Below, piece after piece: positions 60,228-63,936 of a DNA stretch of 64,000 bases (position 1 is the first letter of the stretch; each line of letters begins with the position of its first letter). Source of the stretch: an uncultured Verrucomicrobiales bacterium. Lineage in GTDB: Bacteria > Verrucomicrobiota > Verrucomicrobiia > Verrucomicrobiales > Akkermansiaceae. A program made the position numbers and the translations under genes. Location of the stretch: positions 1 through 64,000 of the forward strand of contig CAJQKQ010000068.1 of assembly GCA_905478925.1 (NCBI GenBank), read 5' to 3'. The notes beneath the pieces are model-generated. The model saw only the letters and a program-made list of their open reading frames with translations. It was not told where the DNA came from and made no database searches.

Positions 60228-61451
60228 ATGGACTATAAGGAATCGATCAAATGGCTTTTCGGAACGCAGCTGTTCGGAATCAAGCTGGGGCTGGAGGGGC
60301 CGAGGAAACTGCTCAGGGAGTTTCTGGCGTTTCCCGGTAATGGTGTGCAGGTGGCGCATGTGGCCGGGACGAACGGGAAGGGCAGTACCTGTGCGATCAT
60401 GGATCGCGTGGCGCGAGCCTGCGGGCGGCGGACTGGGCTGTTCACCTCGCCGCACTTGGTCGACTACCGGGAGCGGATGCAGGTTTCCGGAGAAATGATC
60501 ACCGAGGAGAGGTGCGCGGAGTTGCTGACCGAGGCACGGGAGGTTTGCGAGGGGCTGGATGTGCATCCGACGTTTTTTGAGATCTCGCTGGCGGTGGCGA
60601 TGAGGTGGTTCCGCGAGAGAGAGTGCGAGCTGATCATTTTGGAAACGGGGATGGGCGGCAGGCTGGATGCGACCACGGCGGTGCCGGCGGATGTGTGCGT
60701 GATTACGCCGATCGGGATGGATCATACGCAGTGGCTCGGGGATACGCTTGTCAAAGTGGCGGGTGAGAAAGCCGGAATTTTCCTGGAAGGTGTGCCCGCC
60801 GTTTCTTCGCCGCAGGAGCCGGAAGCGAAACTGGCCTTGGAAAAGGAGGCGAACGAGCGGAGGACTCCGCTTCATTTCATCGACGCGCCGCTGGAAGGGT
60901 ATGGAATTGCGTTGGCGGGGGAGCATCAGAAATGGAATGCGGCGCTGGCGCTGGCGGCGCTGCATCATCTGGGATTGCGGCTTGGATATGAAAGCGTGGT
61001 CGAGGGGCTGCGCAAGGTTTCATGGCCGGGAAGGTTCGAGCGTATCGTTTCGGACGGCATCGAAGTGATTCTAGACGGGGCGCACAACCCTCATGCGGCA
61101 AAGGTTTTGCGGGAGACATGGATTTCGGAAATCGGAGAGGGCAAAGGGACGCTGATCTTCGGTAGCGTGGAGTCGAAGGATGTTTCCGGAATCCTCCGGG
61201 AGCTGAAGGGGCTGACGGAGCGGATGATTTTTTGCAAGGTCGGGACGATGCGCGGGCTGCCGACTGATGATCTGGTCAAAGCACTATCGCAGGATGAAGC
61301 GGCCACCGTGGAATCCCATGAAAGCTTCTCGGAGGCAATGGCGGCGGCGAGGGAGCGTGGATCGCCAGTGCTTGTGGCGGGATCGCTATTCCTTGCCGGT
61401 GAGGCACGCGCGGAGCTGCTTGGCGGGGATTTTCTGGCGAGCCTGCAGTGA
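60228..61451 (+). CDS. folC: Folylpolyglutamate / dihydrofolate synthase
   Basis: 407 residues. The Mur-ligase-type ATP loop is VAHVAGTNGKGSTCAIMD, then GLFTSPHLVDYRERMQVSG (folate site), ETGMGGRLDATTAV and GMDHTQWLGDTL. The C-terminal ligase domain begins WPGRFERI and carries ILDGAHNPHAAKVL. It adds glutamate to folates, and many members also make dihydrofolate. The 174-base gap before it contains a small CGCC-GGGA-GGCG hairpin at 60200-60211. Confidence 0.93.
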   Translation: MDYKESIKWLFGTQLFGIKLGLEGPRKLLREFLAFPGNGVQVAHVAGTNGKGSTCAIMDRVARACGRRTGLFTSPHLVDYRERMQVSGEMITEERCAELLTEAREVCEGLDVHPTFFEISLAVAMRWFRERECELIILETGMGGRLDATTAVPADVCVITPIGMDHTQWLGDTLVKVAGEKAGIFLEGVPAVSSPQEPEAKLALEKEANERRTPLHFIDAPLEGYGIALAGEHQKWNAALALAALHHLGLRLGYESVVEGLRKVSWPGRFERIVSDGIEVILDGAHNPHAAKVLRETWISEIGEGKGTLIFGSVESKDVSGILRELKGLTERMIFCKVGTMRGLPTDDLVKALSQDEAATVESHESFSEAMAAARERGSPVLVAGSLFLAGEARAELLGGDFLASLQ

Positions 61452-61540: not shown

Positions 61541-61568
61541 TTGATTAAAAGGAAAAGTTATTTAATGT
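61541..61568 (+). promoter_or_regulatory. Promoter of the PEP-CTERM gene
   Basis: TTGATT (61541-61546), a 16-base spacer and TAATGT (61563-61568) in a strongly A/T-rich stretch, about 58 bases before the ATG. Confidence 0.5.
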
Positions 61569-61626
61569 GATTCCGTTCATCTCAATTCCGAAAGCGTCCC
61601 TTGCCGAGGAATTGACACCTAGCCTC

Positions 61627-62493
61627 ATGAAATTTCACACCTTGGCGCTTGCGCTGGCGTTTGTGTCGTACACAGGCGCACATTGTGCATCCGTATCCGC
61701 TCCAAGCACCGAATGGACGGCGCTGCAGGGGGATTACGACTACCTGTCCGACCAACAAACCGGTCTCCCCGACAGTGATATCGTAGGCCAAGGCGAGGAC
61801 TACGGTCTGTTCGTGACCCACAACGATTTCGGCTCGGAGAGCGATACTGACGGCACCTTCGGTTTCCGCATCCGCCTTGATGCACCGGGCGGCAACAAGA
61901 ACGAGGCAAAGTTCACAAAGGCAGCATGGCTTGGTATCGACGCTGATTTCAACGACACCATCGATGTGTTCATCGGCGTGAATCTGTCAGGCGCCAAAAC
62001 GGATCTCGGAATTTTCGTGCCAGGTGCAGGCAACAACGATACCCCAACCAGCACCTCGGTCAGCACGACCGCTTATAAGACCTACGAAATCGGACCGTCC
62101 AACTACAACTACCGGCCCGTTGATTACAAGACGGACGGGGGCACCACCAACGATCTGAATCCCGGCACCAAGGGAGAGCCTGATTATTACCTGAGCGTCC
62201 TCGTTGATTTCTCAGATATCGTCGCATACCTCAGCGCTATGGAGATCGAGGTCACGGATCAGAGTGCGATGAGGTTTGTCTCCGCCACATCCAGGCAGGG
62301 CAACAAGCTCAATCAGGATATCGGTGGGATCCGGGGAGACGAGAACGCAGGTGTCTCGTGGAGCGCTAGCGGTGCCCTCACAGAAACGGTGACCGCAAAC
62401 GGGATTGCTGTAGTCCCTGAACCGGGAGCGGGCACCATCCTGATGCTCGGGTCGGTCATCCTGATGCTGCGCCGCAGACGGCAAGGCACCTAG
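61627..62493 (+). CDS. PEP-CTERM sorting domain protein
   Basis: 288 residues with an N-terminal signal (MKFHTLALALAFVSYTGAHC) and a C-terminal VVPEPGAGTILMLGSVILML followed by RRRRQGT: the PEP motif, hydrophobic helix and Arg cluster recognised by exosortase. The middle part is an Asp/Asn/Thr-rich beta-type extracellular domain (DADFNDTIDVFIGVNLSG). It should be delivered to the outer surface or extracellular matrix. No exosortase gene is in the window. Its stop lies exactly at the left edge of the duplicated ftsY end. Confidence 0.8.
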   Translation: MKFHTLALALAFVSYTGAHCASVSAPSTEWTALQGDYDYLSDQQTGLPDSDIVGQGEDYGLFVTHNDFGSESDTDGTFGFRIRLDAPGGNKNEAKFTKAAWLGIDADFNDTIDVFIGVNLSGAKTDLGIFVPGAGNNDTPTSTSVSTTAYKTYEIGPSNYNYRPVDYKTDGGTTNDLNPGTKGEPDYYLSVLVDFSDIVAYLSAMEIEVTDQSAMRFVSATSRQGNKLNQDIGGIRGDENAGVSWSASGALTETVTANGIAVVPEPGAGTILMLGSVILMLRRRRQGT

Positions 62494-62594
62494 AGGACCT
62501 CGGAAATGAAGCGTTCCTTTTCGAATACGGAAAAAGCCTCGGGCTCCTCGCCGGTTCCGATGAAGCGCGGGACGATGCCGAGTTGCTCGTAGAT
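62490..62594 (-). pseudogene. Displaced copy of the ftsY 3' end (last 34 codons)
   Basis: 105 bases matching 63085-63189 with 6 mismatches and no gaps. It reads IYEQLGIVPRFIGTGEEPEA then FSVFEKERFISEVL and a stop, so it encodes a complete FtsY C terminus (one Val to Ile change, the rest synonymous). Five of the six differences are in the last 22 bases. It is in direct orientation with the real ftsY end and, together with it, brackets the hicAB genes, like the attachment repeats of an element inserted in the ftsY 3' end. Confidence 0.85.
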
Positions 62595-62674
62595 GAGGAA
62601 ATCTAGATGCCCAGCGGCGCATGGAGTGAATGCTTGAACCCAAACCGGATCCATGCGAGTTTCATCCGGTGCCA

Positions 62675-62815
62675 GTGAAAGTCAGTGAACTGATCTCCCG
62701 CCTGGTGAAGGCGGGCTTTTCGGATCGGGGTGGCAAGGGTTCCCACAGAAATTTCAGCAAAGGCGCGGTGAACGTGACGGTAAGCGGCAAGACGGGCGCC
62801 GACGCAAAACACTAG
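62675..62815 (+). CDS. hicA: HicA-family toxin, cut short by an in-frame TAG
   Basis: 46 residues from a GTG (another GTG lies two codons before). VKVSELISRLVKAGFSDRGG, KGSHRNF with the catalytic His24 and VTVSGKTGADAKH are typical HicA, an mRNA-cleaving toxin. Translation meets TAG at 62813-62815. Reading past it in the same frame gives QEKQVEKAIQRSKNEK, which fits the normal HicA C terminus (family pattern DDAKxYQEKxVxxAI). A TAT or TAC codon therefore seems to have become TAG, and the toxin probably lacks its last helix. It may be inactive. Confidence 0.7.
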   Translation: MKVSELISRLVKAGFSDRGGKGSHRNFSKGAVNVTVSGKTGADAKH

Positions 62816-62827
62816 CAGGAGAAGCAA

Positions 62828-63076
62828 GTGGAGAAAGCCATCCAAAGGAGCAAAAATGAAAAGCCTGACTACTTGAAATGGGTGCGGTGGAGTGATGAGG
62901 ACGGTTGCTACATCGGCTCGATCCCCGATCTTTGCGGTGATTGCTGCCATGGCGATTCTCAGATTGAGGTTTTTAAACAGCTCCTCGAAATCCACGACGA
63001 ATGGATTTCTATCTTCGAGGCCGATTCGAAACCTCTGCCCGACCCTCGCACCCGCCCGATGATGGAGCCGGTTTAG
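62828..63076 (+). CDS. hicB: HicB-family antitoxin
   Basis: 82 residues from a GTG, but family HicB proteins begin near YLKWVRWSDEDGCYIGSIPD, so the true start may be further in (TTG at 62873) or may have been lost. DLCGDCCHGDSQIEVFKQLL and EADSKPLPDPRTRP are characteristic. It is in the same frame as hicA, so without the TAG the two would be one fusion. An ATG at 62856 (MKSLT) is in another frame and would need one extra base to reach the HicB frame. It ends 8 bases from the convergent ftsY stop. Confidence 0.7.
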   Translation: MEKAIQRSKNEKPDYLKWVRWSDEDGCYIGSIPDLCGDCCHGDSQIEVFKQLLEIHDEWISIFEADSKPLPDPRTRPMMEPV

Positions 63077-63084
63077 CCGTATCC

Positions 63085-63936
63085 CTAGAGCACCTCGCTG
63101 ACGAAGCGTTCCTTTTCGAAAACGGAAAAAGCCTCGGGCTCCTCGCCGGTTCCGATGAAGCGCGGGACGATGCCGAGTTGCTCGTAGATATTGAAGGCGA
63201 TGCCGCCTTTTCCGGAGCCGTCGAGCTTGGTGAGTATGAGGCCGTCGAGGGGGGAGGCTTTGTGAAATTCCTTGGCCTGGTTCAGGGCATTGGTGCCGGT
63301 GGAGGCATCCACGACGAGGAGTGTGAGGTGGGGCGCGCCGGGATCCTGTTTGGCGATGGTGCGGCGGATTTTCCCAAGCTCCTCCATGAGGTTGTGGCGT
63401 GTGTGGATGCGGCCGGCGGTGTCGCAGATGAGGAAATCGGCTTTTTCCTCGATGGCTCGCTGGTGGGCGTTGAAGCAGACGGAGGAGGGGTCGGACTCTG
63501 GTTTTCCGGTGACGACGGGGATATCGAGGCGGTCGCCCCAGCGCTGGAGCTGCTCGACGGCGGCGGCGCGGAAAGTGTCTGCGGCGGCGAGTAGGACGGA
63601 GTGTCCTCGGTCTTTCAGCCACATTCCAAGCTTGGCGGAGGAGGTGGTTTTGCCGGTGCCGTTGACACCGACGACGAGTATGACCGTCGGCTTGCCATCG
63701 GCGCGGGGTGCCAGAGCCGGTTTGTCATCGGGAAGGATTTTCGAAAGGCGCTTCCGGGTGACATTCACCACATCGTCGGCGGAGATTTCGCGGCCGAGGT
63801 CGTGCAGCTCGTCGGTGATACCGGTGCCGAGCTTCGCGCCGAGGTCGGCAGCGATGAGGTTCGCCTCAAGTTCGTCCCAATCGACATCCGCCCTGTCTGT
63901 GATCGCGTTGAAAAGCTTTTTGAAGAATCCTGCCAT
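63085..63936 (-). CDS. ftsY: Signal recognition particle receptor FtsY
   Basis: 283 residues: a short N domain (FKKLFNAITDRADVDWDELE) without the long acidic A domain, then the SRP GTPase: G1 VVGVNGTGKTTSSAKL, DTFRAAAVEQLQRWG, DTAGRIHTRHNLMEEL and TKLDGSGKGG. It docks the SRP-ribosome complex at SecYEG. The last 34 codons are duplicated at 62490-62594. The SRP RNA gene is at 26925-27029. Confidence 0.95.
   Translation of the reverse strand: MAGFFKKLFNAITDRADVDWDELEANLIAADLGAKLGTGITDELHDLGREISADDVVNVTRKRLSKILPDDKPALAPRADGKPTVILVVGVNGTGKTTSSAKLGMWLKDRGHSVLLAAADTFRAAAVEQLQRWGDRLDIPVVTGKPESDPSSVCFNAHQRAIEEKADFLICDTAGRIHTRHNLMEELGKIRRTIAKQDPGAPHLTLLVVDASTGTNALNQAKEFHKASPLDGLILTKLDGSGKGGIAFNIYEQLGIVPRFIGTGEEPEAFSVFEKERFVSEVL

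Follow-up and report, generated by a model that had tools for sequence, protein, structure and literature searches.

A duplicated ftsY 3' end around a hicAB pair at the folC-ftsY junction of two Akkermansiaceae genomes, decayed in one of them

At the folC-ftsY junction of an uncultured Verrucomicrobiales bacterium, the 3' end of ftsY is present twice, and the two copies bracket what appears to be a dead hicAB toxin-antitoxin pair. We consider it probable that this locus is the scar of a gain of foreign DNA, with homologous recombination on one side of the incoming piece and illegitimate joining on the other. The stretch analysed, hereafter the window, comprises 64,000 nucleotides of contig CAJQKQ010000068.1 (genome G000), and the same structure is found in a relative, the Akkermansiaceae MAG G168 (locus L066, JANRFH010000030.1). 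Duplication of a gene end around a toxin-antitoxin pair is usually taken to indicate an integrated element, and the present case suggests that it can be a recombination scar instead. The kind of event is an ordinary one and already known; the value of the locus lies in its clear empty site, in a scar shared by two genomes, and in the record of a discarded gene end that continues to exchange sequence by conversion with the end of an essential gene.

The repeated ftsY end and the empty site

The repeat search returned a direct repeat of 106 nt (62489-62594 and 63084-63189; 94% identity, spacing 595), in agreement with the initial annotation, which had the last 105 bases of ftsY occurring twice in direct orientation with six mismatches. 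Counted from the stop side, the mismatches of the 105-nt span lie at offsets 6, 13, 14, 15, 17 and 36. The clustering in the final 22 bases and the nearly complete silence of the changes had also been claimed, and both were borne out: five of the six mismatches fall at most 18 bases from the stop (P = 0.0014, the chance of at least five of six in the last 22), and only one position differs between the copies in the 83 bases farther away. The conceptual proteins of both copies read IYEQLGIVPRFIGTGEEPEAFSVFEKERF[V/I]SEVL*, a single V/I difference being all that separates them. Together, the five near-stop differences replace a single V by I, an outcome with P = 0.009 if the changes were random. 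The features of the region are listed in Table 1.

Table 1. Features of the folC-ftsY region in the window
Feature	Position	Strand	Basis
folC, left conserved flank, convergent with ftsY in empty-site relatives	60228..61451	+	ORFs, relatives
PEP-CTERM-type secreted protein gene	61567..62493	+	weak PEP-CTERM match below cut-off, comparison with G168
displaced ftsY 3' end, 35 codons including stop, B-type C-terminus FISEVL	62490..62594	-	repeat search, tail comparison
GAGGAAATC, right beside the repeat; occurs once in ftsY at 63430-63438, preceded there by TCGCAGAT	62595..62603	.	repeat search
hicA pseudogene, 3' end approximate	62653..62870	+	ORFs, Pfam, alignment to G168
hicB, ATG out of frame, rest of frame open	62856..63076	+	ORFs, alignment to G168
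native copy of the repeated ftsY 3' end	63085..63189	-	repeat search
ftsY, intact, 283 aa, A-type C-terminus FVSEVL common to empty-site relatives	63085..63936	-	ORF, Pfam, relatives

The locus was compared with a set of 66 ftsY loci of the genus; 59 of the 64 loci other than those of G000 and G168 had at least 500 nt of downstream sequence, and five contigs ended sooner. In six relatives (G004, G005, G022, G139, G183 and G184) the site is empty: folC and ftsY are convergent and lie 9-200 bp apart, without the repeat, hicAB or the PEP-CTERM gene. Among the 66 loci examined only G000 and G168 were positive, and neither repeat nor hicAB was found at ftsY in the other 64. The layout in G168 follows that of the window in the order folC, PEP-CTERM gene, displaced ftsY end, hicA, hicB and ftsY. 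Since the two genomes are collinear across the whole block, we take the insertion at the folC-ftsY junction to be real, to have happened once, in an ancestor, and to be common by descent to the two species. A chimeric contig in the window is unlikely because the independent assembly of G168 has the same structure. The initial annotation had supposed a mobile unit and had suggested a search for empty sites in close relatives; these were found, without the repeat, and support insertion at this junction, while integration by the unit's own means finds no support in the survey of integrase-like sequence in the 66 loci, described below.

What looks like a third copy of the ftsY tail in L066 is most likely due to the assembly: it lies at a run of 100 N whose flanks share exactly 55 bases, as adjacent assembly-graph nodes do. 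A single displaced end is the simplest reading. An apparent insertion inside ftsY of locus L097 was rejected, the gap being a run of N.

The limits first given for the insert (62490-63189) proved too narrow, as the PEP-CTERM gene is also part of the inserted block. This gene was found only in G000 and at the same site of G168 (13 genomes searched), and although it lies outside the repeats its distribution is the same as that of hicAB. In both genomes its stop codon (TAG in the window) shares bases with the CTAG of the displaced ftsY end.

State of the inserted genes

The 490 bases between the repeats had been described as holding hicA and hicB only; both genes are there, and neither is intact in the window. 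Compared with G168, the cassette's only close relative, hicA carries one additional nucleotide near 62664, close to the gene start, and an in-frame nonsense TAG at 62813-62815 where G168 has a Tyr codon. In hicB a 1-nt deletion near 62860, just past the ATG (62856-62858), leaves this ATG out of frame. The hicA product scored 22.5 bits against PF07927, under the 27-bit cut-off, and does not contain the full toxin domain; overall, the bases between the repeats resemble HicA and a HicB-like (UPF0150) protein, each below the Pfam cut-off. In G168, hicA (L066 5327-5070) and hicB (5083-4862) are both intact and overlap, hicA preceding hicB. HicA of G168 reached 38.4 bits against PF07927, above the cut-off; its HicB, itself without a Pfam match, was assigned from its position and because it resembles HicB-like proteins in the family. 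For the hicB of G168, the best match among 260 family genomes is the hicB of the window.

Sequencing error is a poor source for three lesions that fall within about 420 bases next to intact genes, and folC, ftsY and the PEP-CTERM gene are all open in the window genome. These observations argue against error and for real lesions, and we read the window hicAB as a decayed remnant of a toxin-antitoxin pair that is now dead. The PEP-CTERM gene of G168 (L066 5671-6547) is frameshifted and the window copy is intact, so that opposite parts of the inserted block have been lost, hicAB in G000 and the PEP-CTERM gene in G168.

Known defence-system models gave no match. A search with G168 HicB returned one distant match in an Akkermansia phage and none among plasmids, and with these results no vector for hicAB could be identified. 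The insert shows no sign, in its sequence, of mobility of its own.

Two end types and exchange between the copies

The last 66 bases of the four tails were compared. The two tails differ at 6 of 66 positions within each genome, and at 15-18 of 66 between G000 and G168. Since the structure is shared by the two genomes, yet the copies within a genome are closer than those between genomes, the tails were homogenised after the two species split, by gene conversion that exchanged tracts between the direct repeats within each genome. The tracts are not the same: in G168 it is the 45 stop-proximal bases that are identical between the copies, and in G000 the 83 stop-distal bases that are converted, with their one difference.

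The same distances could be obtained if hicAB had been inserted twice, independently, at one place in G000 and G168, each time with a fresh duplication. We regard this as most improbable, because the block is collinear throughout, including the PEP-CTERM gene, the stop overlap and the orientation, and because the hicB proteins of G000 and G168 are the best match among the 260 family genomes. In addition, the displaced copy of G168 still has consensus bases of the relatives (..GC.GGT) where G168's own ftsY has lost them, and hence it is not a fresh copy.

Two types of end can be distinguished among these tails. The type V-S(AGC) is found on ftsY of G000 and in G004 and G005, and the type I-S(TCN) on the displaced copy of G000 and on both copies of G168. 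The ftsY tail of G000 is at the usual distance from those of G004 and G005, while the tail of G168 ftsY differs from G000 at 16 of 66 positions, compared with 4-7 in the preceding windows of the gene. Most simply, then, G000 would carry its resident end on ftsY, with the imported end displaced, a polarity in which we have moderate confidence as it draws on about 26-66 nt. In G168 the aberrant, imported-type end appears to be now on ftsY itself. The initial annotation had the polarity the other way round, with a replacement end on the gene and the old end displaced; it is the end on G000 ftsY that matches the relatives, and the displaced end that is divergent.

The alternative offered by the initial annotation was a simple tandem duplication that captured hicAB between its copies. 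Slippage or unequal crossing-over could have doubled the resident ftsY end in this way, and the differences would then be due to later drift and conversion. Such a history is consistent with the identity of all but one of the 83 stop-distal bases in G000, and direct repeats readily recombine. It is nevertheless quite unlikely in our estimate, as most of the codon changes that separate the end types are silent: the near-stop differences do not look random (P = 0.009) and show the same states as in G168, and a duplication alone brings neither hicAB nor the PEP-CTERM gene. Changes this nearly silent arose in 0.9% of random trials, which argues that the odd end came from a working ftsY and not by neutral drift. 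DNA of a second genome therefore probably took part.

Origin of the insertion

For the joining itself we infer the following route. The donor, another strain or species, would have supplied DNA with one ftsY 3' end and accessory genes, namely the PEP-CTERM gene, hicAB or both. This DNA could pair with the resident chromosome through core-gene homology on one side, and illegitimate joining on the other side would leave two ftsY ends bracketing hicAB; an integrase would not be required. The insertion then passed to two species, in which repeats about 595 bp apart swapped tracts by gene conversion and the passenger genes decayed, hicAB dying in G000 and the PEP-CTERM gene breaking in G168. In homology-facilitated illegitimate recombination (HFIR), homology guides the joining of one end of the incoming DNA, and the other end is joined illegitimately (PMC3240628); the same reaction has been put forward to account for genes displaced within T6SS clusters of Vibrio (PMC5361080). 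A related route is the formation of merodiploids during transformation (PMC3784515). Either could have operated here. Whether the second end came with the PEP-CTERM gene or with hicAB makes no difference to the product, since both orders would give the same one. A second-origin sequence beside the homologous stretch, as HFIR leaves it, is present in the form of the two ftsY end types. Against an HFIR scar it counts that HFIR usually deletes resident DNA too, and such loss is not visible here. No donor genome was found, nor any folC-PEP-ftsY or folC-hicAB-ftsY intermediate among the sampled loci.

At the inner edge of the displaced end, 62587-62603 is a 17-nt near-match, with one mismatch, to 63422-63438 inside ftsY. 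It is possible that this match is the join of two ftsY pieces; the ftsY copy may once have been longer and have lost an internal part here. A comparison of the flank between the displaced end and hicA with ftsY was not significant. The illegitimate junction is too eroded to read, and a search there for further ftsY pieces gave no convincing match.

The main rival is an integrase-borne element of the e14 type, which would have given ftsY a substitute 3' end by site-specific recombination and then lost everything but hicAB. The e14 prophage in icd produces the same geometry through its integrase: the element supplies the 3' end of the gene, and a duplicated pseudo-end of 163 bp stays behind (PMC6379469). 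The duplicated gene 3' end flanking the insert is present at ftsY, and another genome of the genus, G148, has an unrelated hicAB with a tRNA-Arg 3' end repeated on either side, from which it is probable that hicAB rides tRNA-site elements in the genus. We hold an e14-type origin to be unlikely all the same. With 22 integrase-locus queries (E 0.01), no integrase-like sequence was detected near ftsY in any of the 66 genus loci, over 189 kb downstream, where a very divergent one could escape; the insert itself contains none, and larger integrase-carrying elements, for which the initial annotation had suggested looking at this site, were not found in these loci. The ordinary end in G000 is, on short sequence, the one on ftsY and not the displaced one. 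The PEP-CTERM gene lies outside the repeats with the same restricted distribution as hicAB. Nothing relevant on ftsY as an integration site was found in the literature. A recombination scar thus remains the preferred reading, and both the e14-type element and the tandem duplication are weaker.

The G148 unit (L122 1092-2300; G148:C135) has its hicAB flanked by a tRNA-Arg(CCT) gene and, on the other side, by 48 nt that repeat the 3' end of that gene; it is about 1.1 kb long, holds only hicAB, and is probably a reduced tRNA-site element. Together, ftsY and the G148 tRNA-Arg could be instances of hicAB units acting as small passengers that repeatedly enter core-gene 3' ends with a substitute end and a recombinase supplied in trans, an idea that we find very unlikely. 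No second protein-gene case of repeats flanking hicAB was found among the other family hicAB loci screened: the repeat at L122 belongs to a tRNA-Arg end, those at L111 and L119 were rejected as terminator-like hairpins, and those at L129 as intergenic arrays. A G168-like hicAB in G200 (L048 734-1904; G200:C44) faces an RNA-methyltransferase-like gene in convergent orientation, its end 5 bp from that gene's stop, and the same screen found no flanking repeat there.

Other rearrangements were noticed at folC and ftsY in the clade. A second contig of G000, C59 (L032 1727-2778; C59:6726-7777), contains a folC 3' fragment of about 75 codons, a PEP-CTERM-like gene in opposite orientation and an internal ftsY fragment (aa 206-238) whose reading frame continues into the PEP-CTERM-like gene; we interpret it as the remnant of another folC-ftsY junction. 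In G181 (L106 4001-4097; C1:43500-43597) an internal ftsY fragment (aa 212-233) lies 32 bp behind folC, and an intact ftsY is present elsewhere, as would be left if ftsY had relocated and a remnant had stayed at the old place. The orientation of folC is reversed in G015, G017 and G185. The folC-ftsY junction has been rearranged more than once in the clade, and for the displaced end in the window the best reading is a further scar of this kind.

Among known systems, HicAB type II toxin-antitoxin loci are matched by the G168 pair, with its toxin gene followed by an overlapping antitoxin gene and its HicA above the cut-off, but not by the window, where hicA is interrupted and hicB is without its start frame. 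With e14 in icd (PMC6379469) the locus shares a gene 3' end, stop included, doubled around an insert with conservative differences; unlike e14, it has no integrase or phage genes, and in G000 the ancestral-looking end is on the gene. HFIR scars (PMC3240628, PMC5361080) resemble it in having a foreign block at a conserved gene, no integrase, and partly duplicated or displaced gene remains. The differences are that what has been displaced here is not an immunity gene but the 3' end of a housekeeping gene that is essential, and that the illegitimate junction is no longer readable.
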